Assembly (NCBI RefSeq): GCF_017163755.1
Contig: NZ_JAFIWC010000013.1
Span: 62,001-126,000, forward strand
Length of the DNA stretch: 64,000 nucleotides
Direction: 5' to 3'
From: Xanthomonas sp.
Lineage (GTDB): Bacteria > Pseudomonadota > Gammaproteobacteria > Xanthomonadales > Xanthomonadaceae
A program made the translations under genes and the position numbers. This document shows, in pieces, positions 5,506 through 42,673 of this stretch; the stretch's first letter is position 1; every line of letters begins with the position of its first letter. The notes beneath the pieces are model-generated. The model searched no databases and was not told the DNA's origin. It saw only the letters and a list, made by a program, of their open reading frames with translations.

Positions 5506-5594
5506 GGAACCAGCGTAGCCTCGGGTATCGGGTGCGCATTGGAAAAATCGGCCAAGGCTTGCGCGGCCGCCAGGCCGTCATCAGAATCGGGCGC

Positions 5595-6365
5595 ATGCAT
5601 ATGCGCTTTGAACGCCATCGCGTCGGGCCAGCCATCGCCGCACCGGCCGGCGTGGCGGAACTGTTCGTACACGAATGCGAGCGCGACCTGCCGCGCGTCG
5701 CCATTCCCGGCCCCGAAATCCATCTCGTCGTCCGCATCGGCGCTTCGGTTCGCAATGGCCTCGATGTCCATGCGCTGGGCATGCGGCAGGAGGCGCATCG
5801 CAAGATCGTTCCCGCCGGGCAACGTACGCTGTTCGCGCGCCTGCACTTGCACACCTACGCAGCGGTGCTCGGCGTCCCTGCCGCGGACATCGCCGGACGC
5901 ATCGTCGCGCTCGAGGACCTGTGGGGCAGGCCCGCCGCCCAGCGGTTGCTCGATCGGCTCGCCGGCGCGCACGACACCGCCACCGCGGCTGCGGTGCTGG
6001 AACATGCGCTCGCCGAACGCATCGCCATGGCGGAGGCGCCCGGCGCCCACGCGCTGCTCGCCTTCGATGCCGCCACACGGCTGGCGAACGCCAGCGTGGC
6101 GGCCGTCGCCCGCGACCTGGGCATGAGCGAGCGACACCTGCGCCGCATGTTTCGCCAAGCCGTGGGCGTCAGCCCGAAGGCATTCGCCAAGCTCACGCGC
6201 TTCCGCCGCGCCCTGAGCGCCGCACGCGAGGAAGGCGGCACCGATTGGGCAGGCATCGCGGTCGCATCGGGCTATTACGACCAGGCGCACCTGATCGCCG
6301 AATTCCGCGCCATCGCCGGCGCCACGCCGCGTGCGCTCCTGGCCGAGCTGCAGGGCGCAGGCTAG
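5595..6365 (+). CDS. AraC-family transcriptional regulator
   Basis: The 256-residue protein has an N-terminal sensing domain of the kind paired with HTH_18 regulators and a C-terminal double helix-turn-helix. The visible HTH pattern is VAAVARDLGMSERHLRRMFRQAVGVSPKAF (shown here as VAAVARDLGMSERHLRRMF), with the second HTH around ASGYYDQAHLIAEFRAIAG. The ATG at 5595 is followed by a second ATG at 5601, and either could be used. It is divergent from the epimerase gene, the classic arrangement for local control. Confidence 0.8.
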   Translation: MHMRFERHRVGPAIAAPAGVAELFVHECERDLPRVAIPGPEIHLVVRIGASVRNGLDVHALGMRQEAHRKIVPAGQRTLFARLHLHTYAAVLGVPAADIAGRIVALEDLWGRPAAQRLLDRLAGAHDTATAAAVLEHALAERIAMAEAPGAHALLAFDAATRLANASVAAVARDLGMSERHLRRMFRQAVGVSPKAFAKLTRFRRALSAAREEGGTDWAGIAVASGYYDQAHLIAEFRAIAGATPRALLAELQGAG

Positions 6366-21317: not shown

Positions 21318-23441
21318 CTAACTTGCTCCCACCCCGGCAGGTTCTAGCTCGACCACAGCGATGTGCGCCCCGCCCGGCGCCACGCCACGGGTTACCACGC
21401 GGCCTTTTTCCACCACCAGTACCCGGTCCGCGCTATCGATTGTCTCAGGGCGGTGGGCTACGATGACCTTGGTCAGCTGCATCTGCTTCACCGCCTCGTT
21501 GACCCGGCGCTCTTTGCCGACATCCAAGTGGCTGGTGGCCTCGTCCAAGAACAACAGCCGCGGGTCCCGGTACAGGGCGCGAGCAAGAATGATCCTCTGC
21601 TTTTGCCCGCCCGATAGCGAGCTCCCCATATCGCCTATCAGGCTGTGATAGCCCATGGGCATCGCCACCACCTCCTCGTGAATCGATGCAAGTCGCGCTG
21701 CCCGCTCAATCCGCTCCTGATCCAGGCCCAGGCCGAAGAACCCGATGTTATCGGCGATGCTACCGGCAAACAGCTGATCGTCTTGCATCACTGCACCAAC
21801 CACGTTCCGCAGACTGCGCATGCCCGGGCCATGCAGGTCACGCCCACCGATGAGAATCCGTCCCTCGGTTGGCTTGAGCAAGCCAAGCATCAACTTGACC
21901 AAGGTGGTCTTGCCGCAACCCGATTCGCCAGTGATAGCCACGGACTCGCCGGCTTCGACGACGAAGCTGCACTCCCGCAGCACCCAAGGCTCGCCATCTC
22001 CATAGCGAAAGGAGAGATTCTCGACTTCGATCCGAGTGTCCACGGGTGGCGGAAGCTCGACCTCATCATCCATTTCTTCCGGCTCCGCCAGCGCGATGTC
22101 GGAGAGACGCTCTGCGTGCAGTCGCAACATCCGGAACTCTATCCATGCGTCGACTAAACCACCCACGCGCTGCGCGAACAGATCCTTGTAGGCCAGGTAG
22201 GCTACCAGCATGCCCACTGAAAACACATTGGACATGGCGAGCATGGCGCCAATCCAGATCACTGCAATCCGCTCCGCCCCGAATACCAATTGGCTCGCGC
22301 TGGCATATCCGAGCCCCATCTTGGCGAGGCGCAATTCCTCATTCACCGTATCGACCATCAAGTTGTCGTTGGTTGCGCGCCGCGAAGACTCCTGGCCTGC
22401 GACCTTCAAGCTCTGGATTCCGCGCAGGGATTCCAGCAAATAAGTCTGCTGGCGTGCGCCTGCAGTCAACTGCTGTTCGGTTCTATCGCGTAGCGTCTTG
22501 TACGAAATAGCACGGATGGCGGCATACAATCCGACTGCGGCAAGGGTCACGAGCGCGAGCTTCCACGAATACATCAGCATCAACGTCAACGTAATCACGG
22601 CCATTAGCCCGTCAATGATGGCCTCCAAGAAGCTGGTGGTCAGCACGGTCTTGATTTCCCGCACCGAATTCAGGCGTGAGACGATGTCTCCCAGGTTGCG
22701 TTTCTCGAAGAACTCAAGGGGCAAACACAACAAGTGTCCAAATATGTTCCCCATCCACTGCAGGCCGAAGTGCGAAGACAGGAATACCACGGACCAACCG
22801 CGCAGCAGGTTGATAGCCACCTGTAGCAACAGCGCCAACCCGAAGCCAATTCCAAGCACCGCCAGCATGTCGCGATCCGCCGACACGAGCACCTGGTCGA
22901 CCACCCATTGCATGAAGAACGGGGCGAGCACTACAAAGACCTGCAGCGCCACCGACAGTGCCAGCACCTGCGCAGACGACCGCCACAACCCCCGCACCGA
23001 TCCCGTCAGCCTGGCCAGGCTGATCGACGGCTCCACGTTGCGCGACCTGAATTCAGCAGCGGGGGTCAACTCCAACGCTACCCCGGTGAAGCGTTCGGAA
23101 ACCTCCGGGTAGCCCAGGTGCCGCTCTCCGAGCGCCGGATCATAAACCACGACCTTGGAGCGCCCTGCCCGCACCAGCACCACGAAATGGTTGAGGTCCC
23201 AATGCAGGATGCAAGGCATGGCCAGGCGCGGAAGATCCTCCAACTGAACCCGCAGCGCACGGGCGGAAAAGCCGACCTGCTGTGCTATCTGCACAAGGCG
23301 ATCCAACCGGATGCCCTTCAGCGATAGCGCAAAGCGCCTGCGCAGCTCGGCCAATCCCAGGCGCAAGCCGTGATGGTCGGCCACCATGGCAAGCGAGGCC
23401 AGACCGCATTCGGCAGCCTCTGATTGAAGGATGACTCTCAT
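21318..23441 (-). CDS. Peptidase-containing ABC exporter (C39 type) of the RiPP locus
   Basis: The 707-residue protein has three parts. Residues 1-130 are an active C39 peptidase: Gln6, Cys12 in AAECGLASLAM, His in LNHFVVLV, Asp in VYDPALG. Then come six membrane helices, and an ATPase with Walker A GESGCGKTT, signature LSGGQKQR and Walker B LLFLDEAT. Such transporters cut double-glycine leaders and pump the core out. The likely cargo is the precursor at 25738-25911. Start at 23441 places Cys12 at the usual distance. It works with the HlyD adaptor at 28919. No TolC-like gene is present in the locus, so a housekeeping outer-membrane channel is expected. Confidence 0.92.
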   Translation of the reverse strand: MRVILQSEAAECGLASLAMVADHHGLRLGLAELRRRFALSLKGIRLDRLVQIAQQVGFSARALRVQLEDLPRLAMPCILHWDLNHFVVLVRAGRSKVVVYDPALGERHLGYPEVSERFTGVALELTPAAEFRSRNVEPSISLARLTGSVRGLWRSSAQVLALSVALQVFVVLAPFFMQWVVDQVLVSADRDMLAVLGIGFGLALLLQVAINLLRGWSVVFLSSHFGLQWMGNIFGHLLCLPLEFFEKRNLGDIVSRLNSVREIKTVLTTSFLEAIIDGLMAVITLTLMLMYSWKLALVTLAAVGLYAAIRAISYKTLRDRTEQQLTAGARQQTYLLESLRGIQSLKVAGQESSRRATNDNLMVDTVNEELRLAKMGLGYASASQLVFGAERIAVIWIGAMLAMSNVFSVGMLVAYLAYKDLFAQRVGGLVDAWIEFRMLRLHAERLSDIALAEPEEMDDEVELPPPVDTRIEVENLSFRYGDGEPWVLRECSFVVEAGESVAITGESGCGKTTLVKLMLGLLKPTEGRILIGGRDLHGPGMRSLRNVVGAVMQDDQLFAGSIADNIGFFGLGLDQERIERAARLASIHEEVVAMPMGYHSLIGDMGSSLSGGQKQRIILARALYRDPRLLFLDEATSHLDVGKERRVNEAVKQMQLTKVIVAHRPETIDSADRVLVVEKGRVVTRGVAPGGAHIAVVELEPAGVGAS

Positions 23442-23521
23442 CGTTGGGCCTTCCGATCCATCATCGTCACTTCGCACCTTGCGCTGCTGCTCACTGCCGT
23501 GTCGGCCATGCCCTGCTGCCC

Positions 23522-24655
23522 TCAATCAGGCACGGGCGTTGGCGCGTCACGCTGGATCCGGAACAAGGTCAGGCGCGCCCACGCCACGCCCTGTGCACCG
23601 TTCTCCTGGATGTCGGAAAAGGACACCAGCACCGAGCCGTCGGCCAGCCTGTGCGCGGAGGGCGCAAAAGGATTGAAGTGAAGCCGGTCAGTCAAAAGCT
23701 GTTCAGGACCGAGCGAGCCGTCGATACCCACGGACCGCCGGTACAGATCGAAGCCAACCGGAAAGCGCGCCGCCTTGCCCTTGAATGACGGATACACGTA
23801 GTACACGTCCGTTCCGCCATCCTGACGCGGCAATGCAAAGGCATCATGCACATCGGCCTTGTTCGGCGCCTTTGGTGGCGACAACTCCACCGGCTCGGAC
23901 CACACTGCGCAATCGCGACTGACGCTGTAATACGTCGCCATATAGCCCCCACTGGGGGGCCGCTGAAAGCTGAAGAAGCATCCATCCTTCCCCATGGGCA
24001 CCACGCGCGGATAGGCCACCCGGGACGAAACCAGCTTGATCGACTCGCCCGGCCTATCGCCACCATGCCAGCGTTGCCATTGCGGGCCAGCTTCGTCACC
24101 GCGGAAGGTCAGCATCACGTCCTTTCCCGAACCAACCCATCTTGGAAGCTGGCTGAGCCGGTTGAGCCCCTGCGCATCGCTCAAGCGCTGTGGCGCGGCG
24201 AAGCGGGCACCGTCCGCGCGCGCGCGCCACAGACGCACTGTGCCCAGCCCGGCGTCGCTGCTGGCGAAATAGAGCCAGGTTCCGCCGTTGCTCCTGATGT
24301 ACACCGGGCCATCCTCGACCTCGCCACCAAACGATAGACGCGCTGGCGAGGATACGCTGCGTCCGTCGAGGGACGATATCTGCCACAGCCGCGACGAATC
24401 GATGTCGCCGTGTTGATACTGGGCGTACACCAGCAGGAAGCCACCGTCAGCCATCGGTGTCACCGTCGCCTGACGGTCGACGCCGCCGCTCTGGTGACTA
24501 ACCCAGACGTCCTGCTCGCCTACAGGCAGTTTCACCGCTTGCGGCAGCGGCCTGGCTTCCTCCTGCTTCTGCGCAGGTTGCCGGGCCTGCGTGGCGCCAA
24601 GGACCGAGCACAGCGCCGCGAGGACAAGAAAGGCACACGAAATACGACGTTTCAT
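23522..24655 (-). CDS. Secreted beta-propeller protein of the RiPP locus, unknown role
   Basis: The 377-residue protein has a signal peptide (about 1-24, ATQARQ). It continues with repeated modules of about 50 residues that hold Asp/Gly/Trp-rich turns (DSSRLWQISSLDG, GGTWLYFASSDAGLG, GYMATYYSVSRD), as in sialidase-like five- or six-bladed propellers. I see no sialidase catalytic Arg triad. It starts 16 bases after the oxygenase fusion gene and is clearly part of the operon. Export suggests a periplasmic or surface role, such as binding the product, immunity or an adhesion target; none is shown by the sequence. Confidence 0.65.
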   Translation of the reverse strand: MKRRISCAFLVLAALCSVLGATQARQPAQKQEEARPLPQAVKLPVGEQDVWVSHQSGGVDRQATVTPMADGGFLLVYAQYQHGDIDSSRLWQISSLDGRSVSSPARLSFGGEVEDGPVYIRSNGGTWLYFASSDAGLGTVRLWRARADGARFAAPQRLSDAQGLNRLSQLPRWVGSGKDVMLTFRGDEAGPQWQRWHGGDRPGESIKLVSSRVAYPRVVPMGKDGCFFSFQRPPSGGYMATYYSVSRDCAVWSEPVELSPPKAPNKADVHDAFALPRQDGGTDVYYVYPSFKGKAARFPVGFDLYRRSVGIDGSLGPEQLLTDRLHFNPFAPSAHRLADGSVLVSFSDIQENGAQGVAWARLTLFRIQRDAPTPVPD

Positions 24656-24671
24656 TTCAGTCAACCTCGGC

Positions 24672-25661
24672 TCATGCAGGGTCCGCGCACCAGATGTTGC
24701 ATGCATACTTCACGCCACCGGCGACCGCCATGCCGGCATGCAACGCACTCCCCTCGACATCGCCCCCGGCCGATCGGCGGTTGCGGAACATCAGCAGGCC
24801 GCCCCGTTTTGGTCTTACCCTCAGATCCAGCAGCGGGAACAAGGTTTCCCCGCCCTCGAATCCATCGTTGAGATAGGCCAGCATCGTCCAGCCGCGCGAA
24901 GCGCGATCACCCCGGGCCACGGGCACGTCGTAGTGTGGCGAGAACTTCTCGCCCGCCTCGTACCGTACACATTGAAGCGGTTCGAAACGCTCAGCCTCCA
25001 CGCCTATCAGCGCCGCTGCGCGGCGTACGATGCTGTCGCACAGCGGCCCAGAACAGGAAGCCGACTGGCTAGTGCGGCCGCTGGAACGCACTTCGCTGTG
25101 CAGGCTGCCATCGGCACTGACCATACTCCGACGGAACAAGGGATCGGCCTCACCCACGAGCTGTCGACACTCTTGCTCCGATATGAATTCCTCGACCAGT
25201 CGCAGTGCCAGGTCATGCGACGCACCCCTATCCAAGGTGGCACCTGTCCCGCTCGACCGGTCGTCGCCAAGGGCGAGACATACCCCCGTCCAACGCGCCA
25301 CGAAATCGCTCCATGCTTCCAGCCACCAGCCGTCGCTGCCGTTGTAGCTAAGCACCGATTGCCCGTCGATCCGGGCCACGACAACAAACTCATGCGCTCC
25401 GTTCAGCCGTATCTGCGCCAGCACGGGCAGGCGTCCCAGCCGCAACTGCGTCGCATCGGCGCGGAACCCCAAGGTTTGCACGCCCAGTTCGGCCAACGCA
25501 TCGGCGGCATGCTGCAGTGTAAATTTGTCCCGGTACCAGCGCGGTGCTCCCTTCAGCGCGACCTCGGCCGACGACACGGGCTGACCCGCCATCCGCGCGG
25601 CAACATCGATCACCGCCAGATGGGGGCAATGCTTCTTGAGTATGGAGTGTTCGAGTTGCAT
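24672..25661 (-). CDS. Degenerate C39-peptidase domain fused to a prolyl-4-hydroxylase-type oxygenase
   Basis: The 329-residue protein has two domains. Residues 1-130 align with the C39 peptidase of the neighbouring exporter (HCPHLAVIDVAARMAG, AHEFVVVARIDG, FVARWTGVCLAL) but the catalytic set is broken. Cys12 is kept, Gln6 is Ser, the His column reads His90-Glu91, and the Asp is Asn107. Residues 145-329 form a 2-oxoglutarate/Fe(II) oxygenase with His243-x-Asp245, His308 and Lys318. A dead C39 domain could bind the double-glycine leader and present the proline-rich core for hydroxylation. Start at 25661 follows GGAG. I know of no described enzyme with this layout. Confidence 0.82.
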   Translation of the reverse strand: MQLEHSILKKHCPHLAVIDVAARMAGQPVSSAEVALKGAPRWYRDKFTLQHAADALAELGVQTLGFRADATQLRLGRLPVLAQIRLNGAHEFVVVARIDGQSVLSYNGSDGWWLEAWSDFVARWTGVCLALGDDRSSGTGATLDRGASHDLALRLVEEFISEQECRQLVGEADPLFRRSMVSADGSLHSEVRSSGRTSQSASCSGPLCDSIVRRAAALIGVEAERFEPLQCVRYEAGEKFSPHYDVPVARGDRASRGWTMLAYLNDGFEGGETLFPLLDLRVRPKRGGLLMFRNRRSAGGDVEGSALHAGMAVAGGVKYACNIWCADPA

Positions 25662-25691
25662 GGATCGCCGCTCCCTGCATTGGCGCATCAA

Positions 25692-25721
25692 GCGATGCGA
25701 GCCCTCGCGGGCTCGCATCGC
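25692..25721 (-). promoter_or_regulatory. Perfect 13-bp hairpin between precursor and oxygenase genes
   Basis: GCGATGCGAGCCC and GGGCTCGCATCGC pair without mismatch around a 4-base loop. The hairpin begins 16 bases after the precursor stop and is not followed by a T-run on the minus strand. It is probably an RNA stabiliser or partial attenuator that raises precursor mRNA over downstream genes, as with the lasso hairpins in this window. Confidence 0.75.
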
Positions 25722-25737
25722 AATGTAGCGAGACCGG

Positions 25738-25911
25738 TTAGACGGGTCCCGGCTGGGGGCCTACGCCATCGGTCTTCGGGGTGGTGGATACCGGGGGCAG
25801 AGTCGGAATCCCGTCACCGTCGCCGCCGGCGACCAGTTCCATCTCCTCCTTCGACAGGATGTGACCGAGCACGCGCGATTCCAGGTCCTTCTTCAGATCG
25901 TCATTCTTCAT
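25738..25911 (-). CDS. Double-glycine RiPP precursor peptide with proline-rich core
   Basis: This small gene encodes 57 residues. The 30-residue leader (MKNDDLKKDLESRVLGHI..., ending MELVAGG) is charged and helical with the ELVxGG pattern of C39-processed leaders. The 27-residue core starts DGDGIPTLPP and ends GVGPQPGPV, with VSTTPKTD between. It holds seven Pro, five Ser/Thr, one Lys and acidic residues only at core positions 1, 3 and 18. This suits Pro hydroxylation and a Thr/Lys-to-Asp cross-link by the ATP-grasp enzyme. AAGGAAG precedes the ATG. It lies between the ATP-grasp and the C39-oxygenase genes. It has no Cys, so it is not a thioether RiPP. Confidence 0.85.
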   Translation of the reverse strand: MKNDDLKKDLESRVLGHILSKEEMELVAGGDGDGIPTLPPVSTTPKTDGVGPQPGPV

Positions 25912-26000
25912 GTCGTTGCTTCCTTAGTTTCATGGCGCCGGAATTGACGCCACATATCTGCGCCAGCACCTGGCGCAAATCTATGAAACGCGCGCCTGGC

Positions 26001-27047
26001 TCAGGCCAGCTCGGCGTCCGTTTTTCGATAGTCCTTGATGAACTCTGCAAATCGAATGGGCGCTGCATGGGGTCGATAGCGCCACTGCGGCGATGGATCA
26101 GCGAGAAACTCGCAGAACATGTCCAGTACCGGCAATTCAGGACACCAGTCTTCCAGGAACAGAAACTGTCCGGCCTGGTTGGCTTCGAGGAATGTCCATT
26201 CGCCGTCGCTTCCGACCAGGAAGTCGAAGCCCGCCGAGACTAGCCCAAGACGCTCCATCAGCGCGAGGCAGCGGATTTGCACGTCCTCGGGAACGTTCGC
26301 CCGCTCACAGCACTCGATCGCTCCTTGTACCAAGCGCCAATCCAAGCAATCATGCGAGGACACGTCGATCTTGATGGCCGCGCACTGGCGTCCGAAGAAC
26401 TGCGCGCGTACCTCATATGCGTGCTCGACACGACGCTGGTATATGCCGGGAACGGCACGCAGCACTGGATCGTTCGGCAGATCGGCCTCCCTTACCCGAG
26501 CCGTGTAGGTTGCCCTACGGCGCCCCTCCTGCAACCAGACGTAGCCTTGCAGCGGCTTGTAGATGCAGTCGGCGTGCTGGCCGAGGAATGCGCGAATCTC
26601 AGCGGGATCGTTTCCGATCAGGGTCTCAGGGATGCGCAAGCCAATCTCGACCGCGCAGGTGAGTTGGTGGATCTTGTTTTCCGCCCTGGCCACCGACTCG
26701 ACGGGGTTCACCCATTGAGCGCGCGCCAGCAGCTGATACAGTCCGTCGCGTGCGGCCGAGACTTCGCGACGCATGAACGGCGCGTCCTCATCGGCTACCG
26801 GGCTGGTCTGGATCGACTCGTATGGGCGGCGGTTCCAGACCACGCCGATGGACTCCAGCGATATGGGCCGTCCGCCCAGATCCAGGCGCGTCTGCGATCC
26901 CTGTGCGTCGAAGCGCAGGCTCAATGTATCTGCGCGTGTCAGGTTGTCGCTGCTCAGGCGATGCACCGTGCGACCCTTTACACGCATGGCATATTCCACC
27001 GCCAGCGCATGAAAATCCTCGCTCCCGGCCACGATCAGCAGTTTCAC
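26001..27047 (-). CDS. ATP-grasp RiPP ligase (MvdC/MvdD, graspetide type)
   Basis: The 348-residue protein shows the features of the MvdD-like family. These are an N-terminal pre-ATP-grasp domain with VVWNRRPYES, a central lysine in YKPLQGYVW, and the metal-binding C-terminal motif FLEANQAGQFLFLED, then a PVLDMFCEFLAD tail. Such ligases phosphorylate Asp or Glu side chains and join them to Ser, Thr or Lys in a precursor core. The neighbouring precursor is the obvious substrate. The start is a GTG that overlaps the stop of the preceding oxygenase gene (GTGA), so the pair is translationally coupled. Confidence 0.85.
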   Translation of the reverse strand: MKLLIVAGSEDFHALAVEYAMRVKGRTVHRLSSDNLTRADTLSLRFDAQGSQTRLDLGGRPISLESIGVVWNRRPYESIQTSPVADEDAPFMRREVSAARDGLYQLLARAQWVNPVESVARAENKIHQLTCAVEIGLRIPETLIGNDPAEIRAFLGQHADCIYKPLQGYVWLQEGRRRATYTARVREADLPNDPVLRAVPGIYQRRVEHAYEVRAQFFGRQCAAIKIDVSSHDCLDWRLVQGAIECCERANVPEDVQIRCLALMERLGLVSAGFDFLVGSDGEWTFLEANQAGQFLFLEDWCPELPVLDMFCEFLADPSPQWRYRPHAAPIRFAEFIKDYRKTDAELA

Positions 27048-27628
27048 GGCGCAATCCCCGTGCGGGGGCCGGTATGGCGACGGCCATCAAAGCGATGCCC
27101 GGCCTGCGGACCGTCGACATCGACGTAGTGCAGGAACAGCTGCAGCCAGTTGCCTTCAGCCAGGGGCTCGCGCCAATGCGGAAGATCGGCTCCCTGGAAC
27201 AGCAAGGCATCGCCCACTGCAAGCTCGATCCGTTCCACCTGTCCCTTGCTCTCCAGCAGGATGGGCCACGCCGGAGGTGCTCCTTCATGGCCGACAGTCA
27301 GGGTGAGGCTGTATTCGCAGGAAGCACGATCCGTATGCTTGTCCAGTCGCGATTCCGGCGTGTAGAAGCGCAGGAACGAGTAGGTAGGGAAAAGCCGCTT
27401 TCCGACCAGTTTTTCCACCTCCGGCAACAGGCGCACCAGCAACGCTTCCCCAAAGGCGTCGGAATACCTACCCAAGGAGCAGGTGCTTTGCTCGAGCTTG
27501 AAGTAGTTCCCCGCCATCACATAGCTCTTTGCGTATTCGAAGTAGAGCCACATGATCTCTGGCAAGACGAGTCCCTCCAACTGCACGAAGCGACGCTGCA
27601 TGAAGCTGTGCTTGCGGTCTTCGTTCAT
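27044..27628 (-). CDS. 2-oxoglutarate/Fe(II) oxygenase of the RiPP locus
   Basis: The 194-residue protein carries a probable facial triad, His98-x-Asp100 (DKHTDRASCEYSLTLTVG) and His151 (LPHWREPL), within a cupin-like beta pattern. An Arg/Lys for 2-oxoglutarate is less obvious than in its neighbours; Arg153 is a candidate. A GGGAGA ribosome site supports the ATG at 27628 rather than the in-frame GTG at 27643. It overlaps the ATP-grasp start. A hydroxylase acting on the precursor core is the likely role. Confidence 0.75.
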   Translation of the reverse strand: MNEDRKHSFMQRRFVQLEGLVLPEIMWLYFEYAKSYVMAGNYFKLEQSTCSLGRYSDAFGEALLVRLLPEVEKLVGKRLFPTYSFLRFYTPESRLDKHTDRASCEYSLTLTVGHEGAPPAWPILLESKGQVERIELAVGDALLFQGADLPHWREPLAEGNWLQLFLHYVDVDGPQAGHRFDGRRHTGPRTGIAP

Positions 27629-27648
27629 CAGGCGTTCTCCCACTTGAT

Positions 27649-28239
27649 CTATGGATGAGTAGTGAGAGCGGCCGGAGCGGCGCTCTCATGGGCGGCTGCC
27701 AGCGCAGCGAGCATCTGCGGACGCAGCCCCGCACCTGCTCTCACCTGCGCCCAGTGGAAGAGATCGCGCAAGAAGCGTTGTCCACTGCCTTGTTCGATCA
27801 GGTTGGCGCACTCGATCTCGATGAGGCCGCCTAGCGCCTCGGCTTCTACGGAAATGAGCTCACCGGTGTCTCGATGCCTCAGCACTCCGGTGTCGAAGGC
27901 TTCGAGGAAGGCATCGGGGCGGTTGCTGACGCAGAAGAGGTAAACGAGGCGCTCGGCCTGCGCACCTATCATTCGCACGACCAACGAGCGATCGGCCACG
28001 TCGAGCCGGCGCAATGCGAACACATTGGTGCCGTAGACGCTGTGGAACAGCCCTGCGGCGCCGACCGCGGGCGGGCAGGACCAGGACTGCAGGATGCTGT
28101 ATGTTCCTGCGAGATGCTCCAGCAACGTCCGGCCGGAATGCGGCACCTGGTCCGAACGCAGTATCTGCAGGTACTCCAGCAACTCCGGCGGAAGCTCGGC
28201 TACGGCAGAGGCCATGGAATGTGGGGCGGCCCTGGACAT
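27649..28239 (-). CDS. DUF6817-like helical protein of the RiPP locus
   Basis: The 196-residue protein contains TLLEHLAGTYSILQSWSCPP and AGLFHSVYGTNVFAL. These conserved His-containing helices are what I recall for DUF6817, a helical domain distantly like HD hydrolases and often found near Fe/2-oxoglutarate enzymes. No nuclease-type HD pair is certain. The start at 28239 lies 2 bases after the stop of the preceding oxygenase gene. A role in peptide modification is suggested only by its position inside the operon. Confidence 0.6.
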   Translation of the reverse strand: MSRAAPHSMASAVAELPPELLEYLQILRSDQVPHSGRTLLEHLAGTYSILQSWSCPPAVGAAGLFHSVYGTNVFALRRLDVADRSLVVRMIGAQAERLVYLFCVSNRPDAFLEAFDTGVLRHRDTGELISVEAEALGGLIEIECANLIEQGSGQRFLRDLFHWAQVRAGAGLRPQMLAALAAAHESAAPAALTTHP

Positions 28240-28241
28240 TG

Positions 28242-28850
28242 CTAATGCGCCACCTGGGTCTTGAACACCACGGTGATTCTCAGCTCTGGACATTCGCGAC
28301 TGGGCGAGCGCGCAACGTGCGGGGTCGCTCCGCGGAAGACGGCCACACGGCCGGGCCTGGGATATACCGCGTGGGTAATGTCGCCGGTTTCAGGCACCAC
28401 AAATACGGTCTCGCCGGACCAATTCGGATGCCATACGCCATGGGCGTAGTAGACCACCGTGAGATAGTCGTCCTTGTCTGAGCTGTCGGTGTGCACATAG
28501 CCCTCCACCCCATAGGTGTGAGCGTTGGCATAGACCCGAATGGGCTCTTGCCCGGCCAGCACCGTGTCCGCCAGGCATTTCCACAGTTCGTAGATGGGCT
28601 GGGCCTGGGCATTGCTGGCAAGTTCGTCGAGGCAGCCGGCGCGGCTGCTCTTGTCTCCGCCCGCGAAATGCGCGTGCCAGAATCCAAAGCGGTCATGTTC
28701 CTTCACCGACTTCCAGCCATACGCCCAGATCGGTCGGCGCACCAGTCGCAACACCTCAGTCTGCAGGGCGTCGGGAACAAGATCATCAACCACGTTTACC
28801 CCGCCTAGTGCGGGAATACCTGGCACTTTCGATCGCTTCTTGGTAGCCAC
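28242..28850 (-). CDS. 2-oxoglutarate/Fe(II) oxygenase, P4H-like, of the RiPP locus
   Basis: The 202-residue protein has the complete triad and co-substrate residue: His120-x-Asp122 (GYVHTDSSD), His178 (GATPHVARSPS) and Arg191 (ELRITVVFK). The pattern fits prolyl-hydroxylase-like enzymes. The start is GTG with an ideal AGGAGGT site 7 bases upstream. It is the first enzyme gene after the HlyD adaptor in the transcript. Its presence with two further oxygenases implies several hydroxylations of the seven-proline core, or different residues for each enzyme. Confidence 0.82.
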   Translation of the reverse strand: MATKKRSKVPGIPALGGVNVVDDLVPDALQTEVLRLVRRPIWAYGWKSVKEHDRFGFWHAHFAGGDKSSRAGCLDELASNAQAQPIYELWKCLADTVLAGQEPIRVYANAHTYGVEGYVHTDSSDKDDYLTVVYYAHGVWHPNWSGETVFVVPETGDITHAVYPRPGRVAVFRGATPHVARSPSRECPELRITVVFKTQVAH

Positions 28851-28918
28851 GGAATTACCTCCTCTTGACAGAAAGGAGCTACGTTGGCGCTACTTACGCT
28901 GACGTAACGTTCAACGCG

Positions 28919-30181
28919 TCACAGGGACAAGCCGCCATGGGAGTACAGAGGCTCAAAGATCCACTCGATGAGCCGACTTCGCTCACCGAGGATGTCAGCC
29001 TCCAGCGCCATTCCAGGCTTGAGTTGCTCGGGCTTGCCGTAAGCCAGGATGTCCTGGCGCGACAGAGAAACGGTGACCCGATACATGGGTTCGCTCACGG
29101 CGCCCAGTCCATCCATCAGTGCTGCGACTTCCACGGGACTGAGCGCGCTGCGGCTAATCTGCTTCACCCGGCCTTCCTGATGGCCGAACTTCTGGTACGG
29201 ATACGCCTGGTAGCGCAGCAGCACCTTGTCGCCCGGATCGATAAAGCCGATCGCCCGACTGGGCACCAGCAGCCCTGCTTCCAAACGCCCGTCCTGTGGC
29301 AATACGCTCATCAGCGGCTGCCCGGCTTCCACCGCTTGGCCTGGCTTGAATAGCTGAGTAGCGACCACGCCGCTGACCTGCGCCGTCAGCGCCAATTCGC
29401 CACGTGCGAGAGTCTCAACTTGTTCCTGTTCCAATTGCGCCAGGGCGGTACGCAAGCCGGCTTCGCCGACTTGGCGTTGTACCGGCAGTGCGCGCAGGGA
29501 TTGCTCAAGCTGCGCGATCGAGCGCTCGGCGCCGATGGCCTGGCGCTGCAGCGCCTGCCTATTGCTGACCTGTTCCAGCACCTGGGTCCGTTGCTGCTTG
29601 ATCTGCAACTCACTGACGTAGTTGCCGCTGCGTAGCCGCTGCAGGCGTTCCAACACCTCCTCGTCCAGCGTTACCTGCTGGTTGCGAGTGGTGATTTCTT
29701 CGCGGATCTTTTCAAGTTCGCGACGAGCGTTGGTGAGTTGCTCCACCAGGCCGTTGCGTTGCGCGTCCAGCAAGTCCTGATCTGCGAGACGCGTATCCTT
29801 GAGGCCTTGGGCACGCCGGCGCAGGCGCGCCTCGACTGCGGCCAGTGCGTCCCCGTCGCTGAGCGTCGCCCGTGGCACTGTCAGGACCGCAACGGTCTGC
29901 CCCGCCTCGACACGGCCGCCTTCTGTCACATCGATGCGCGCAATCACGCCCGTTGCGGGCGCCAACACGGTCGCCATGCCGCGCATCGGCATCAGTTGCC
30001 CGACCACGCGGGAGCGCTTGGTGTAGTGACCGAACACGAGAAACAGCACCACCAGGGCCGCCGCGCACAGCGAGAATATCGACAGTACCCATAGGCTAAC
30101 GGGTTGTGCGAGGCAGATGCGGCCTAACCAGCGATTGTGTTTTGCCTCGACAGCTTCCTTGCGAAACAGGCTTTGCGCCAT
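28919..30181 (-). CDS. HlyD-type membrane-fusion protein of the RiPP exporter
   Basis: The 420-residue protein has one N-terminal membrane helix (about residues 31-52), split lipoyl halves (APATGVIARIDVTEGGRVEAG and LTAQVSGVVATQLFKPGQ), and a long coiled coil between (about 100-230). This is the standard periplasmic adaptor for C39 ABC exporters such as the one at 21318. It is the promoter-proximal gene of the locus, and 795 bases without a gene lie upstream. Confidence 0.9.
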   Translation of the reverse strand: MAQSLFRKEAVEAKHNRWLGRICLAQPVSLWVLSIFSLCAAALVVLFLVFGHYTKRSRVVGQLMPMRGMATVLAPATGVIARIDVTEGGRVEAGQTVAVLTVPRATLSDGDALAAVEARLRRRAQGLKDTRLADQDLLDAQRNGLVEQLTNARRELEKIREEITTRNQQVTLDEEVLERLQRLRSGNYVSELQIKQQRTQVLEQVSNRQALQRQAIGAERSIAQLEQSLRALPVQRQVGEAGLRTALAQLEQEQVETLARGELALTAQVSGVVATQLFKPGQAVEAGQPLMSVLPQDGRLEAGLLVPSRAIGFIDPGDKVLLRYQAYPYQKFGHQEGRVKQISRSALSPVEVAALMDGLGAVSEPMYRVTVSLSRQDILAYGKPEQLKPGMALEADILGERSRLIEWIFEPLYSHGGLSL

Positions 30182-37969: not shown

Positions 37970-38974
37970 ATGGCTAAGACACGCGCCTACACGTCGGAGC
38001 TCGGCAGCGAGACCGTGACTGCGGAGGCCATCGGCAAGATCCGGAACCTCCACTACAACGGGCGGCCTACCGGCCAACGATACTTCAGTACGCATTCGGT
38101 TGGTCAGCGTCGCGCCGTCAAACATGTCATGAAGGAAAAATGCTTCTTCGCCTACGTCGAGGGCGGAGGAAACACCTCGGCTTCCGACGGCGAGACACTG
38201 AACCACCTTCTTTTCAAGGAGGCACTGGCGTCGATAGAACACACCACTCTTTCCTTGTACACGCTGACCACCGGAAAGCCGACGCATTGGCGCAATGTTC
38301 CCGTTCGCATTAAAAAGGCGGAGCCAGAGAAGGCGATCGAACGCACGAATGGATCCCCATTCCGTGCGGACCTCTACATTGAATTTGAGGACGATATGGG
38401 CCTCGCACTGAAGTGGGAGAACCAGTTATATTTAGAGATTCGACACACCCACGCCGTTCAGGCCGAGAAGCAGATGGAGTTGCGGGACCTGGAACGACCG
38501 GTCGTTGAGGTGGAAATTCCCGATCTGTTCACCTACGCGGTCGCGGATGACGAAACCAGCGACGACCAGGAAGAAGCACATCGGCAGCGGATCAAGGCGA
38601 TCCTCGAGAGTAAAAACGGCTTCCTGAAGTGCGTCATTCTCAGTGATCCGAGCTCCAAAACATACCTTCGACGCCTGGCGAGCAAATATCTCAGTAAGAT
38701 CAAATCTCTGGAGGCGGAAAGCACTACGCTTCTCGACTCGCTTGCGGCATCCCAAGAGCAGTTACTCGCATCAACCGAAAAGGCTGCACACTTGTCTTCC
38801 CAACTGCAGGAGAGCCAGCAAGCTGTGGAGCGGCATCTGTCTGACCTGAAACAAGGGCGCCGGGAACTGGAAGACCTTCGGCAGCAAGTGTCAGAACTAC
38901 GACGCCAGCGAGACCGGCTGCTGCTGACATTTAGTGTGCTAGGCGCAGGTCTTGCCCTCCTGATAGCTTGGTGA
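37970..38974 (+). CDS. Nuclease-like protein with coiled coil and C-terminal membrane anchor
   Basis: The 334-residue protein has an N-terminal domain with RADLYIEF, LYLEIRHTHAVQAEKQMEL and VVEVEIPD. This order resembles the D, ExK core of PD-(D/E)XK nucleases of the CoiA-like group, though the ExK is LEIR. A long coiled coil (residues about 245-315) is followed by a single hydrophobic helix at the end (LLLTFSVLGAGLALLIAW). Tail-anchored nucleases of this kind occur in defence islands. An AAGGA site precedes the ATG at 37970. Confidence 0.55.
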   Translation: MAKTRAYTSELGSETVTAEAIGKIRNLHYNGRPTGQRYFSTHSVGQRRAVKHVMKEKCFFAYVEGGGNTSASDGETLNHLLFKEALASIEHTTLSLYTLTTGKPTHWRNVPVRIKKAEPEKAIERTNGSPFRADLYIEFEDDMGLALKWENQLYLEIRHTHAVQAEKQMELRDLERPVVEVEIPDLFTYAVADDETSDDQEEAHRQRIKAILESKNGFLKCVILSDPSSKTYLRRLASKYLSKIKSLEAESTTLLDSLAASQEQLLASTEKAAHLSSQLQESQQAVERHLSDLKQGRRELEDLRQQVSELRRQRDRLLLTFSVLGAGLALLIAW

Positions 38975-39068
38975 TTGGCCGGTTGCGGGTTCACAAGCCT
39001 AAGAATGGAATCAGCAGGACACGCGGGCATTCATCGGCATTCGTCGGCATCGTGGATGCCACCCATCC

Positions 39069-40616
39069 GTGGAGAAGACGACCGCTATCCTCATTAGCCT
39101 GAAACACCAACATGCGCTTGGCAATGGCCGCTTCTGTGTCACATTTTATGGTTCTGCTCGGTCAGTGGCAGCCGAACGTCAAAATCAGCTGGAGGAAGTT
39201 GCAGCGCTCCTCTTTTTCCCGTTAGGCAGCACACATACGGTACATAGGAAGAGAGAGATGGATCCTAAGAAGCTTCGAAAGATTTCGTATCTGCTAAACT
39301 GTCTACGCAATCCGTCACGACTAGAGGTGCATAAACCACCATTTGGCGATGGCGGCTTAATAGACTATCTCTCCCGAGAGATCCGCACACCAGATGGTCG
39401 TGTGGCGCTTCTTACCCGGACGGGCTTGGCGGAGCTGAGAGAGCTCACGCAAATGCTATTTGACGCACACCTGTTTGGCAGTCTTGTTGGGTACGGTGAC
39501 GTCGCCTCCTCTCTACGGTCCATCTACGGAAGGCTGTTGGTGGAGACCGGGCCAGCCTTTACCTCAGTTGATCTAATTGAGTCTATTTGCCAAGACCTCA
39601 AAAATAAAATCGGAAAGCGCAGATTTGCAGTTCCACTTTCTGGCGTTCGCCTCGAGGATATCTCTAAACTCGATCTTGGTCCCGTTTGGCTCGTCAATGA
39701 CCTGCGCTCAACTTTAGCCGAAGCAGGAGAGTCTCCTGTTCGTAGGTACGTCGGTGGCGCGTTAGGGGCAGTGGGATCTGCGACTTGGCTAGTCGGAGAC
39801 ATCGAGGGAACGGTGGACGTGGCGACGGACCGATTTTCGTCGCTGGCTAATCTCTCACTAGGTTTACTGGCTGTATATGGCGCCGTTTCATATGAAAACG
39901 GAGCGACAAATTTCAGGCTTTGCACACAAATGAGTGCAGAGACCACCAGCGCCCGCGGGACTTATTTGCATTGGCAGTTAGATCAACCCAACGTGACCGT
40001 CAACTATCAGCTGCTAAAACACCAGACGCTTCGGATCAACAAGGAGAGTGCAGATAGAATTTACGCCGAGAAGTTATTTGACCGAGGATTTGCTTTGGCT
40101 GCAAGTACTGGTAGCAGTCAACTCGAAAAGGCTGTTATAAGGGCAATCCATTGGTTTTCAGATGCTCAGCGTGATCCAAGCGTGGTGATGCAGTTCGTGA
40201 AGTACTGGAGTTGCGTAGAAACCTTCTTTACGAGTCCAGACAAGGTCGTTCGTTCAGTGTCCAGCGGTCTCGCTACAACTCTGGTTGCCGGCGGCTACGA
40301 GATATATCCCCCCGATGCATATTTCAATTTAAAGAAAAGAATTTCGAAGCTATATATCGCGAGGTGTAAGGCAGTCCACCAGGGGCATCATGATCACGTA
40401 AGCTGGAAAGATGTCAGCGATCTTAGTGAGTGGTGTGCGTGGTTGATTTTAACCATGCTTTCTCTTTTGGAGAGAGGTTATATTTCAACTAAAGAAATAA
40501 GAGTGCAGATTGATAGGCTTGATGCAGTCCTAATCAGAGGACACGGAATGGCGGCCCTAACAAATTCTTCGTCCAGAAGCACAGCTGATAGTTCTACCCT
40601 AAGTAGCAACCCATGA
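39069..40616 (+). CDS. HEPN-domain protein, possible defence ribonuclease
   Basis: The 515-residue protein has a low-GC, AT-rich coding sequence unlike the neighbouring core genes. Its C-terminal part shows AIHWFSDAQRDPSVVMQFVK, then RCKAVHQGH. This fits the R-x4-H active-site motif of HEPN ribonucleases, as in ApeA-type proteins. The first 350 residues have no recognised motif and may form a sensor. The start is GTG at 39069 and is uncertain. It converges on the SIR2 gene with 70 bases between. Confidence 0.6.
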   Translation: MEKTTAILISLKHQHALGNGRFCVTFYGSARSVAAERQNQLEEVAALLFFPLGSTHTVHRKREMDPKKLRKISYLLNCLRNPSRLEVHKPPFGDGGLIDYLSREIRTPDGRVALLTRTGLAELRELTQMLFDAHLFGSLVGYGDVASSLRSIYGRLLVETGPAFTSVDLIESICQDLKNKIGKRRFAVPLSGVRLEDISKLDLGPVWLVNDLRSTLAEAGESPVRRYVGGALGAVGSATWLVGDIEGTVDVATDRFSSLANLSLGLLAVYGAVSYENGATNFRLCTQMSAETTSARGTYLHWQLDQPNVTVNYQLLKHQTLRINKESADRIYAEKLFDRGFALAASTGSSQLEKAVIRAIHWFSDAQRDPSVVMQFVKYWSCVETFFTSPDKVVRSVSSGLATTLVAGGYEIYPPDAYFNLKKRISKLYIARCKAVHQGHHDHVSWKDVSDLSEWCAWLILTMLSLLERGYISTKEIRVQIDRLDAVLIRGHGMAALTNSSSRSTADSSTLSSNP

Positions 40617-40686
40617 ACTGAGCAGAACTGCAGGCATATCCACACCCGTCTAGAATTTCTTTAACACGGCTTAATGATTTATCAGA

Positions 40687-41553
40687 TTACCATTTTTCTG
40701 TTGTCCGCAATTGCGCCCGAACGTCTTCGACATTTTTTACTAAGGCAGCAAGGCCCGATGTCAAAGCAGCATGATTGTTATCTTGACTGTATTTCAAGAA
40801 AGACACATGCATCATCTCTGACGTGACAGTTAGTATCTCATCCGCCACGGACCCTTCCGCCACCGTCATATAGTGGTCAGGAAGTCTCCCATGAGCGAAA
40901 CGAATGTCCTCGAATAGCATGCGTATATCCGGATCGTCAATCCCACATCCAATAAAAAGGAACGTATGCGTGAGCGCCAATGCCTTTAAAATCGCGTAAA
41001 ATAGTGTGTATTTTGTTCTGGCTTCAGCATAATCGAATCGAGTAAATATCACTTCGTCGGGATTATTCGCGGAACCATGAGTCTTAAGAATTAACCGTAC
41101 ATCTCCGCCGTGGAGATAGCTCGCGATGTCGCTGCTTGTATGATCCTTTACTATAACAGAGCCTGCCGAGACGGAGGACGCATGAGTTTCATATATGTTG
41201 TCGAAGTTGGGACTTGCCACAATCGATGAATCTAGATCATAGATATGCCGATGAATATCTGCAGCGCGAAAGGCTGCCTGCTGAAACTCCCGCTGCACTT
41301 TCTGAACAAAGCTACCGGACCCGAGCCGGCGCTTAATGAGCTCACATGCAGTCGGATAGTCTCTCTCATCTATCAATTTAACCAGATCTGGGGGATCATG
41401 AAGCTGCCCTGCGCACATCCTCAAAAATCCCTCCCAAGTCGGGGGGCGATCTCCGCGATCATTGGTTGAATTTCTAGACACTCCAGATCCGATCATTATT
41501 ACGGATCTTCTTCTTGCGATAGCGTTAATTAGATGAGCCGGCCACTCGATCAC
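40687..41553 (-). CDS. SIR2-domain protein, likely NADase effector
   Basis: The 288-residue protein keeps the SIR2 nucleotide-binding pattern: MIGSGVSRNS (about 20-29), SPNFDN (about 113-118), LKTHGS and FIGCGIDDPDIRMLF. Family members in phage defence degrade NAD+ to stop infected cells. The start is a GTG overlapping the stop of the ParA-like gene (GTGA), so both are made from one transcript in coupled fashion. No further domain is present, so the ParA protein may be its sensor or regulator. Confidence 0.82.
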   Translation of the reverse strand: MIEWPAHLINAIARRRSVIMIGSGVSRNSTNDRGDRPPTWEGFLRMCAGQLHDPPDLVKLIDERDYPTACELIKRRLGSGSFVQKVQREFQQAAFRAADIHRHIYDLDSSIVASPNFDNIYETHASSVSAGSVIVKDHTSSDIASYLHGGDVRLILKTHGSANNPDEVIFTRFDYAEARTKYTLFYAILKALALTHTFLFIGCGIDDPDIRMLFEDIRFAHGRLPDHYMTVAEGSVADEILTVTSEMMHVSFLKYSQDNNHAALTSGLAALVKNVEDVRAQLRTTEKW

Positions 41554-42539
41554 TGGACTTGCTCCAAGAAACGTTCGGCGATCTTGTGAAAGAATTCTCC
41601 CGCCTCGCTCACCCTGGTGTATTGTGATCCTACGATCCCATCTTTGGAGTTGAGCTCAAAGATGGGGGCATGAGCCTGCTGAGACAAAGGGACGACACTA
41701 CTCAAAGTAGGGATCTCCCCAAGGTTGACGTCCTCAGGCTCCACTGCAAAGAAAGCACAAAGCTTGTTCATTTCCTCCTTTTGCTTAGTAATAATTCTTT
41801 CGAAAGCGTCAACTGCTTGCCTAACGCCAGAAACGCTTTTGGCACGATACTGCTGCATGACGTACCCAGCGAATTGCAAACTCCACTCTACCGGTTCCCC
41901 TTGAATTTGGAAGGACGTACCTTCATTTCGTGTATGCCTGTCATTTGCATCAGCGAGAGACTGCTTCCAGTTCTGCAACGAGTTAATGATATTCTGGACA
42001 GCCATTAAGCTAAAAATATCCACAGAAAGGGGCATAACAAAAAAATCCACGGCCAAGAGAACCGATCTATTGAGTGCCCCGAGAGATGGTCCCATATCCA
42101 CCAATACATAATCATAGACGTCGAGTCGACCAATTAACTCCCTAATTGCATAGGTGGTTTGAAATCCTCTAGGCTCACCGTTTCGCGTGGCGGACCAGTC
42201 GGTAGAAAGCAAATCTTCACGAATAGATAGTTTGGGATCACCTACGATCAAATCGACGCCAAAGCGTGAGCTTCGTTGGATGGTCGGGATCTGCGTCGGG
42301 TATCCCTGCCCTCTACGAACAGGCTCATAAAAACTATCTAGGCTAAAGTTCGACTCATCCAGCAAGATCTGCTCAAGAGCATCCTCTGGAAGGAGATACG
42401 CGGATGCGTTGCACTGAGGATCCGCATCAATGATGAGAACCTTGGATCCCTTAGTTCGCGCGAGCGAGGCTGCCAAATTGCAAATCAGAGTCGTTTTACC
42501 AACTCCCCCCTTGTTATTGAAGAAGCCAACACTTCTCAT
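41550..42539 (-). CDS. ParA-family ATPase coupled to SIR2
   Basis: The 329-residue protein has the deviant Walker A motif KGGVGKTT (residues 10-17), the ParA pattern LIIDADPQCN, and a VLVDMGPSLG Walker B. It has no ParB gene or parS-like repeats nearby, so it is not an ordinary partition protein. Its stop overlaps the GTG of the SIR2 gene. Low GC and codon use match the rest of the island. A role as the trigger of a SIR2 effector is an inference. Confidence 0.82.
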   Translation of the reverse strand: MRSVGFFNNKGGVGKTTLICNLAASLARTKGSKVLIIDADPQCNASAYLLPEDALEQILLDESNFSLDSFYEPVRRGQGYPTQIPTIQRSSRFGVDLIVGDPKLSIREDLLSTDWSATRNGEPRGFQTTYAIRELIGRLDVYDYVLVDMGPSLGALNRSVLLAVDFFVMPLSVDIFSLMAVQNIINSLQNWKQSLADANDRHTRNEGTSFQIQGEPVEWSLQFAGYVMQQYRAKSVSGVRQAVDAFERIITKQKEEMNKLCAFFAVEPEDVNLGEIPTLSSVVPLSQQAHAPIFELNSKDGIVGSQYTRVSEAGEFFHKIAERFLEQVQ

Positions 42540-42625
42540 ATCTCATCTCCTAGATACGCTTTCACACGTTGTACGACAGCCGGACGAATGACGTCTGAAG
42601 CACTGACATTGCGATTCACATCAAG

Positions 42626-42649
42626 AAAAAAGCGACCATAAGGCCGCTT
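42626..42649 (-). terminator. Intrinsic terminator after aceE
   Basis: On the minus strand an 8-pair stem with one mismatch (AAGCGGCC with GGTCGCTT) and a 4-base loop is followed by six T. It lies 25 bases after the aceE stop and separates aceE from the ParA-SIR2 genes. Confidence 0.8.
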
Positions 42650-42673
42650 CTTCCTTCCGATCTTTGGTAATTA

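Follow-up and report, generated by a model that had tools for sequence, protein, structure and literature searches.

The window analysed here is a 64,000-nucleotide stretch of Xanthomonas sp. DNA (contig NZ_JAFIWC010000013.1, positions 62,001 to 126,000), and its minus strand carries an operon whose genes point to a graspetide, a ribosomally synthesised and post-translationally modified peptide (RiPP), with Fe(II)/2-oxoglutarate (2OG) oxygenase genes set among the graspetide genes. Nine minus-strand open reading frames (ORFs) fill positions 30181 to 21318, bearing out the nine co-directional genes of the original prediction. They are transcribed in the order HlyD adaptor, OX1, DUF6817 protein, OX2, ATP-grasp ligase, precursor, a fusion of a C39-like domain with a prolyl 4-hydroxylase (P4H)-like domain, a protein with a signal-peptide-like start, and a C39 peptidase-ATP-binding cassette (ABC) exporter (PCAT). 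With the preferred starts, which for four genes probably lie inside the ORF (DUF6817 28239, C39-P4H 25661, propeller 24655, PCAT 23441), the spacing runs from a 4-base overlap to a maximum of 89 bases; 2 bases separate the OX1 stop from the DUF6817 start, and OX2 and the ligase overlap by 4 bases.

Features of the graspetide operon in the window, in order of transcription.
Feature	Coordinates	Strand	Basis
HlyD-type periplasmic adaptor of exporter	28919..30181	-	PF13437 5.6e-19; type_I_hlyD 1.2e-37
OX1, FlmC-like Fe(II)/2OG oxygenase	28242..28850	-	PF13640 9.8e-6, 26.9 bits (cut-off 27); FlmC 2.5e-20
DUF6817 protein, HD-like fold without HD Asp	27649..28239	-	DUF6817 family match 7.6e-26
OX2, putative third 2OG-type oxygenase	27044..27643 (start GTG 27643 or ATG 27628)	-	HxD...H pattern only: H103, D105, H156
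Graspetide synthetase (ATP-grasp ligase)	26001..27047	-	TIGR04187 1.4e-62; PF21068 1.4e-8; PDB AMdnB, CdnC
Precursor, 57 aa, leader end ELVAGG	25738..25911	-	ORF; leader resembles precursors of related loci
Predicted core, 27 aa	25741..25821	-	DGDG start, 7 Pro, Asp at core 1, 3, 18
13-bp hairpin just 3' of precursor gene, before C39-P4H gene	25692..25721	-	-29.6 kcal/mol vs shuffle mean -15.7, z -5.3
C39-like domain + P4H-like 2OG domain fusion	24672..25661 (ORF open from 25718)	-	PF13640 8e-12; PDB P4H 1.7e-15
Protein with signal-peptide-like start ('propeller')	23522..24655	-	sequence, by eye
PCAT, C39 peptidase-ABC exporter	21318..23441 (ORF open from 23525)	-	PF03412 1.2e-32; PF00664; PF00005

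Both features expected of a graspetide locus are present: an MvdD/TIGR04187-type ATP-grasp ligase and, adjacent to it, a precursor with a conserved leader and a core that offers acidic acceptors and Ser, Thr and Lys donors. The ligase scores 211.7 bits against TIGR04187, under the curated cut-off of 350, and 35.2 bits against PF21068, over the cut-off of 27; its nearest sequence relative in the PDB is AMdnB (3.3e-34), followed by CdnC (4e-28). A single ORF with a double-glycine (GG) leader was noticed in the operon by eye. In its 27-residue core, DGDG directly follows the GG, the seven Pro and three Asp residues counted originally are all there, and D48 (core Asp18) is invariant in a four-row alignment. 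The complete C39 ABC/HlyD exporter that had been proposed is likewise supported by family matches: the PCAT has C39, membrane and ATPase domains and matches NHLM_micro_ABC1 at 9e-146, under the family cut-off.

A ligase-based scan of genome contigs for close relatives returned none, and ligase relatives were found in 7 of the 20 genomes of the genus sample, our own included. Twelve other places in those genomes, together with 40 places in the family, gave 52 comparison loci for which wide regions were fetched; the 40 were drawn from the matches found in 46 of 297 genomes, and some of the contigs fetched are short, two of them below 6 kb. All three of HlyD, PCAT and ligase are present at 10 of the 12 genus places and at many of the 40 family places. 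The leader pattern (S)RVLG..L(S/A).EE...V.GG recurs in six of these loci (L014, L015, L165, L166, L167 and L168), L014 also shares the core end DGVG..P.P with the window precursor, and a TDG-like core segment is found in some of the genus and family loci. A precursor lacking conservation in related loci had been named in advance as grounds for giving up the prediction; the leader is kept in six loci and the core partly in L014, and the double-glycine precursor and the graspetide-type RiPP are both upheld. Homologues of OX1, OX2, DUF6817 and C39-P4H occur at none of the 52 places (E 1e-3 for genus, 1e-2 for family; some stretches short), so the window locus appears as an ordinary graspetide chassis with a cassette added to it. 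The sequence comparisons support a graspetide biosynthetic operon carrying an added oxidative tailoring cassette, with ester or amide side-chain links predicted in its product. The same absence from 52 of 52 places would also be expected if the ligase and the oxygenases served separate products, the tailoring genes having been inserted by chance and the graspetide left unmodified. We regard this as very improbable, because the cassette genes lie within the operon, in the HlyD-ligase and precursor-PCAT intervals and 89 bases or fewer from their neighbours, and because the one GG-leader ORF noticed has a core that begins DGDG.

The cassette includes OX1 and its neighbour, the DUF6817 protein, which had been listed without a role. 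The FlmC match of OX1 reaches 73 bits against a cut-off of 240, and H120, D122, H178 and R191 are present in 21 of 21 aligned rows. As the OX1 metal residues are conserved in this way and the precursor leader matches those of precursors near related ligases, the operon is, as far as can be read from sequence, more than a chance arrangement. In PLSDB, OX1 matches six plasmid records, and a DUF6817 match is adjacent in all six (annotation seen for three). In locus L074, which comes from the same taxonomic order as the window, a single protein of 372 residues joins the two, OX1 first, with a C39 exporter and a double-glycine precursor nearby. A DUF6817 alignment with one short pattern, run against 84,980 species genomes, yielded 108 relatives, the best 80 of which were kept. 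OX1 adjoins DUF6817 in the three top-ranked of these, and an OX1 match is found in 12 of the best 80 of the 108 (L084, L085, L086, L092, L095, L098 (partial), L102, L115, L127, L149, L150 and L161). The reverse order, DUF6817-OX1, appears as one protein in L150 and as one open frame in L161, and fusions of 2OG domains with DUF6817 occur in L122, L123 and L159. Among neighbour or fused ORFs of DUF6817 (116 of 132 listed were scanned) there were 11 matches to PF13640, 8 to TauD and 3 to JmjC_2; apart from the 2OG/JmjC families and DUF6817, no family had more than three matches. TauD lies on one side of DUF6817 in L103 and condensation and adenylation domains of a nonribosomal peptide synthetase (NRPS) on the other; the DUF6817 locus L099 also adjoins an NRPS. 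Searches aimed at the pair in three families gave matches in 2/249, 1/119 and 6/299 genomes (queries and limits differ, and the starting genome is counted each time). The third family gave five new genomes, in which L206 and L208 are new and have DUF6817 beside OX1, L207 is the Caballeronia already in the set and L204 and L205 have no DUF6817 match; the first family gave one, L209, again with no such match. OX1 and DUF6817 recur together, as neighbours or as fusions of either order, in settings that include microcin-like and YcaO clusters, and the DUF6817 domain itself is found in several phyla. At L084:6344-11709, on a contig titled Pantoea sp., OX1-DUF6817 shares a cluster with a YcaO gene and two nitroreductase-like ones, and at L138:9734-11527 a 598-residue ORF fuses DUF6817 with a JmjC_2/cupin oxygenase domain.

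Proteins rich in Asp-Gly stand beside this pair at several places. In L085 (Burkholderia territorii) a microcin V-like precursor (5517-5921; PF17508 4.9e-4, under the cut-off) with a C-terminal run of Asp-Gly repeats sits beside OX1-DUF6817 and a PCAT/HlyD exporter, and its tail is reminiscent of the modified tail regions found in siderophore microcins. Double-glycine-leader proteins rich in Asp-Gly dipeptides also occur in L115 (Rhodoferax), L150, L161 and L074, and L095 has such a tail on a protein with no double-glycine leader. Next to OX1-DUF6817 in L206 (7671-8539) lie two proteins whose N-termini look Sec-type by eye and whose tails are rich in Asp-Gly. With DG-rich defined as 8 or more GD or DG dipeptides within 30 residues of an ORF no longer than 450 residues, such an ORF occurred in 7 of 17 pair loci versus 1 of 121 other loci (Fisher 9e-7; the loci are phylogenetically non-independent). 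Thresholds of 7, 8 and 9 gave an identical table and a threshold of 10 gave 5/17 versus 1/121. Before the count, four own-genome loci, the near-duplicates L149 (=L077) and L207 (=L076) and all loci shorter than 9 kb were dropped, as were longer ORFs. Among loci with a full C39 exporter, double-glycine ORFs were DG-rich in 4 of 4 pair loci versus 0 of 30 controls, all of them graspetide loci drawn from a single genus and family; L115 falls outside this count, its exporter being cut by the contig end, and has a DG-rich double-glycine protein. The association of the pair with Asp-Gly-rich proteins points to the DGDG start of the window core as its target. Since OX1 appears to work with DUF6817 in a pair linked elsewhere to such proteins, it is probably not a proline hydroxylase, a correction to the original reading, and its role would lie at the core start. 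Repeats of a DGDT(G)K-type motif also mark proteins at L142:15705-16427 and L160:7219-7485, a few kb from DUF6817 genes with no OX1 match.

The prediction had counted three Fe(II)/2OG oxygenases. Family matches sustain OX1 and the C39-P4H fusion, and the third, OX2, is a candidate by its HxD...H pattern alone, with no Pfam, NCBIfam or PDB sequence match. Matches to OX2 occur in 6 of 321 genomes of the class (our own counted) and in 6 plasmid records. In the 5 genome and 4 plasmid regions covered around these distant homologues, neither DUF6817 nor the ligase nor the precursor had a match; L066 among them matches the P4H half of the fusion and L067 has an annotated 2OG oxygenase. The P4H-type enzyme of the prediction is present in the fusion, whose 2OG domain keeps the HxD...H ligands and the 2OG-binding Lys (H262, D264, H327 and K337 in the 348-residue ORF) and has characterised prolyl hydroxylases as its nearest PDB matches; from sequence, it probably hydroxylates prolines. 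Its C39 part matches the family at 8.8e-4 (19.6 bits against a cut-off of 22) and lacks the Gln-Cys-His-Asp catalytic set of a C39 peptidase: of the four residues only the Cys remains, with Ser replacing the Gln before it, Glu (next to a His) in the His column, and Asn in place of the Asp. Because the Gln, His and Asp columns are replaced, this part may be a leader-docking domain, perhaps inactive. When the fusion was used as a marker, 77 other genomes of 297 matched, and among the matches listed only the P4H half did so. The profile searches underpin most of the gene types of the prediction, and its labels for OX2 and the 'propeller' protein, which has no Pfam or NCBIfam match in the family scans, are weaker than claimed. 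The hairpin 3' of the precursor gene would let the precursor be produced in excess; scans for promoters and terminators gave fewer sites than in shuffles. Elsewhere in the window, positions 38001-44000 have a G+C content of 47-60% against 64-69% in the flanking 2-kb steps and may be acquired DNA.

Taken together, we propose, with a probability of roughly 60%, that the operon builds a graspetide in which OX1 and DUF6817 oxidise core Asp and the P4H fusion, OX2, the ligase and the PCAT complete the pathway. The 57-residue ribosomal precursor would be held through its leader. OX1 would hydroxylate Asp1 and/or Asp3 of the DGDG start, probably at the beta carbon, and DUF6817, as an HD-fold metalloprotein, would further oxidise that product, possibly with C-C cleavage to aminomalonate by analogy with SmaO/SmaX, an oxygenase pair of another graspetide locus. 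The P4H-like domain, probably leader-docked via the degenerate C39 domain, would hydroxylate Pro, and OX2 some residue. The ligase would link Thr, Ser or Lys to Asp, most likely core Asp18, as an ester or amide, and the PCAT would cut after GG and export the product together with HlyD. Gene content, homology, the presence of metal ligands, the HD-like fold model, leader conservation and the co-occurrence of the pair, mutual and with DG-rich proteins, are observed; the substrates, the order, all chemical steps and the bioactivity are inferences.

Several observations weigh against this proposal. Among the best 80 of the 108 DUF6817 loci, 68 have no OX1 match, ranks 4 to 8 included, and none has a ligase match, so that ligase and pair were seen together at the window locus only; OX1 homologues with no DUF6817 match occur in L204, L205 and L209. 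Ten of the 17 pair loci have no DG-rich ORF, the DG measure was picked after the first cases had been seen, and of the two new pair loci added later, L206 has such ORFs and L208 lacks them. The core in L017 begins DDDDGG in a graspetide locus with no cassette, and the DGDG Asp residues could instead serve as ligase acceptors. The parallel between SmaO/SmaX and OX1/DUF6817 is one of described function. The metal site of DUF6817 is a further difficulty: no Asp stands at the HD position in any of seven DUF6817 seeds (Ser in 5, Asn in 1, Ala in 1), and E96 is Ala in two of the seven.

DUF6817 models as an HD fold, the structural comparison having been made with VIA-align, and in this it resembles the HD-domain diiron oxygenases of the PhnZ type; their His-Asp metal motif is missing. 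Across 58 rows the HD-Asp column holds Ser in 56, Ala in 1 and Asn in 1, 57 of the 58 having been fetched by a pattern that permits Ser, Asn and Ala only. Because there is no Asp at this position, DUF6817 does not have a canonical PhnZ-type diiron site. The HD Asp is needed in alarmone-hydrolase-like HD hydrolases, and its loss tells against the idea that all the oxygenases hydroxylate Pro or other core residues and DUF6817 is a regulatory or housekeeping protein of that kind with no peptide chemistry. This is unlikely also because DUF6817 is fused to 2OG domains, adjoins TauD and JmjC oxygenases and has DG-rich partner proteins. The missing Asp argues, too, for chemistry other than that of PhnZ, as would suit OX1 and DUF6817 acting on Asp to give a product other than aminomalonate, for example through oxidative backbone cleavage at Asp-Gly, as a keto product, or as a stable hydroxy-Asp with DUF6817 as a chaperone. 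TauD/SyrP logic links TauD beside an NRPS to beta-hydroxy-Asp, and the adjacent TauD, DUF6817 and NRPS domains of L103 fit a beta-hydroxy-Asp substrate; moreover, a cascade from Asp to aminomalonate is reported in a graspetide locus (PMC13097080). These points leave a different product possible but doubtful, and further oxidation by DUF6817 of an Asp hydroxylated by OX1 is still the reading we prefer.

More speculatively, and only as a tentative extension, OX1-DUF6817 might be a portable module of general use, oxidising Asp within Asp-Gly runs of ribosomal peptides and proteins that are exported, among them graspetides, microcin V-like and Sec-type proteins and others with a GG leader. The outcome would perhaps be a tract that chelates iron and is encoded ribosomally. 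DUF6817 would then represent an HD-fold oxygenase of a new type, its metal site altered, and the window product would combine oxidised Asp, hydroxyproline and a macrocycle. If the Asp-oxidising reading is right, DUF6817 acquires a role open to test, that of the enzyme acting second in oxidising Asp, and tails or starts rich in Asp-Gly would let substrates be recognised among exported peptides. At the window locus a single 27-residue core may undergo ATP-grasp cyclisation as well as oxidation of Asp and hydroxylation of proline, and beside the microcin V-like protein a role in uptake or metal binding becomes testable.

Compared with known systems, PhnY/PhnZ and TmpA/TmpB act on small-molecule phosphonates, not peptides, and have the canonical HD metal site that DUF6817 lacks. 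The microcin V-like locus L085 is like the window in its GG leader, PCAT and HlyD (OX1 59% and DUF6817 50% identical) and differs in having no ligase match and an Asp-Gly-rich C-terminal tail rather than a short core start. The genus and family graspetide loci share HlyD, PCAT, ligase and GG precursor with the window, six with the same leader pattern, and differ in the cassette, absent from 52/52 places (some stretches short). In the literature searched, with most subscription papers outside its coverage, we found no paper on DUF6817, and among the 10 papers listed of 27 matched for P4H with C39 and a double-glycine leader none mentions P4H. The SmaO/SmaX locus reportedly comes from Kim et al. 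2025.

Graspetide loci with oxygenases have been described in group 15 (corallotide, with a hydroxylated isopeptide) and group 18 (SmaO/SmaX) (PMC13097080), and the strings oxygenase, hydroxylase, 2OG and oxoglutarate are absent from the main text of the 2022 survey (PMC8939145). Graspetides with 2OG oxygenases are thus already published (2025-2026) and the locus is not a new class; what stands of the original claim that no described system combines all these parts is the cassette, missing from the 52 other loci, and the proposed general role of OX1-DUF6817 is more novel than the locus itself. Corallotide has a TIGR04187 ligase and a PF13640 oxygenase, as in the window; that oxygenase hydroxylates Lys of the isopeptide after the ligase has acted, and its locus, unlike the window, has a long repetitive precursor, a beta-lactamase and one oxygenase (PMC13097080). 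According to the same source, NHLM-type transporters are common in group 18, and SmaO/SmaX act on the N-terminal end of a linear graspetide precursor, where they convert Asp to aminomalonate (PMC13097080). The window locus, too, sets a pair of this sort among graspetide genes and has a core that starts with Asp, a likeness by analogy only, and beyond the SmaO/SmaX locus it adds two further putative oxygenase genes, one of them the C39-P4H fusion.

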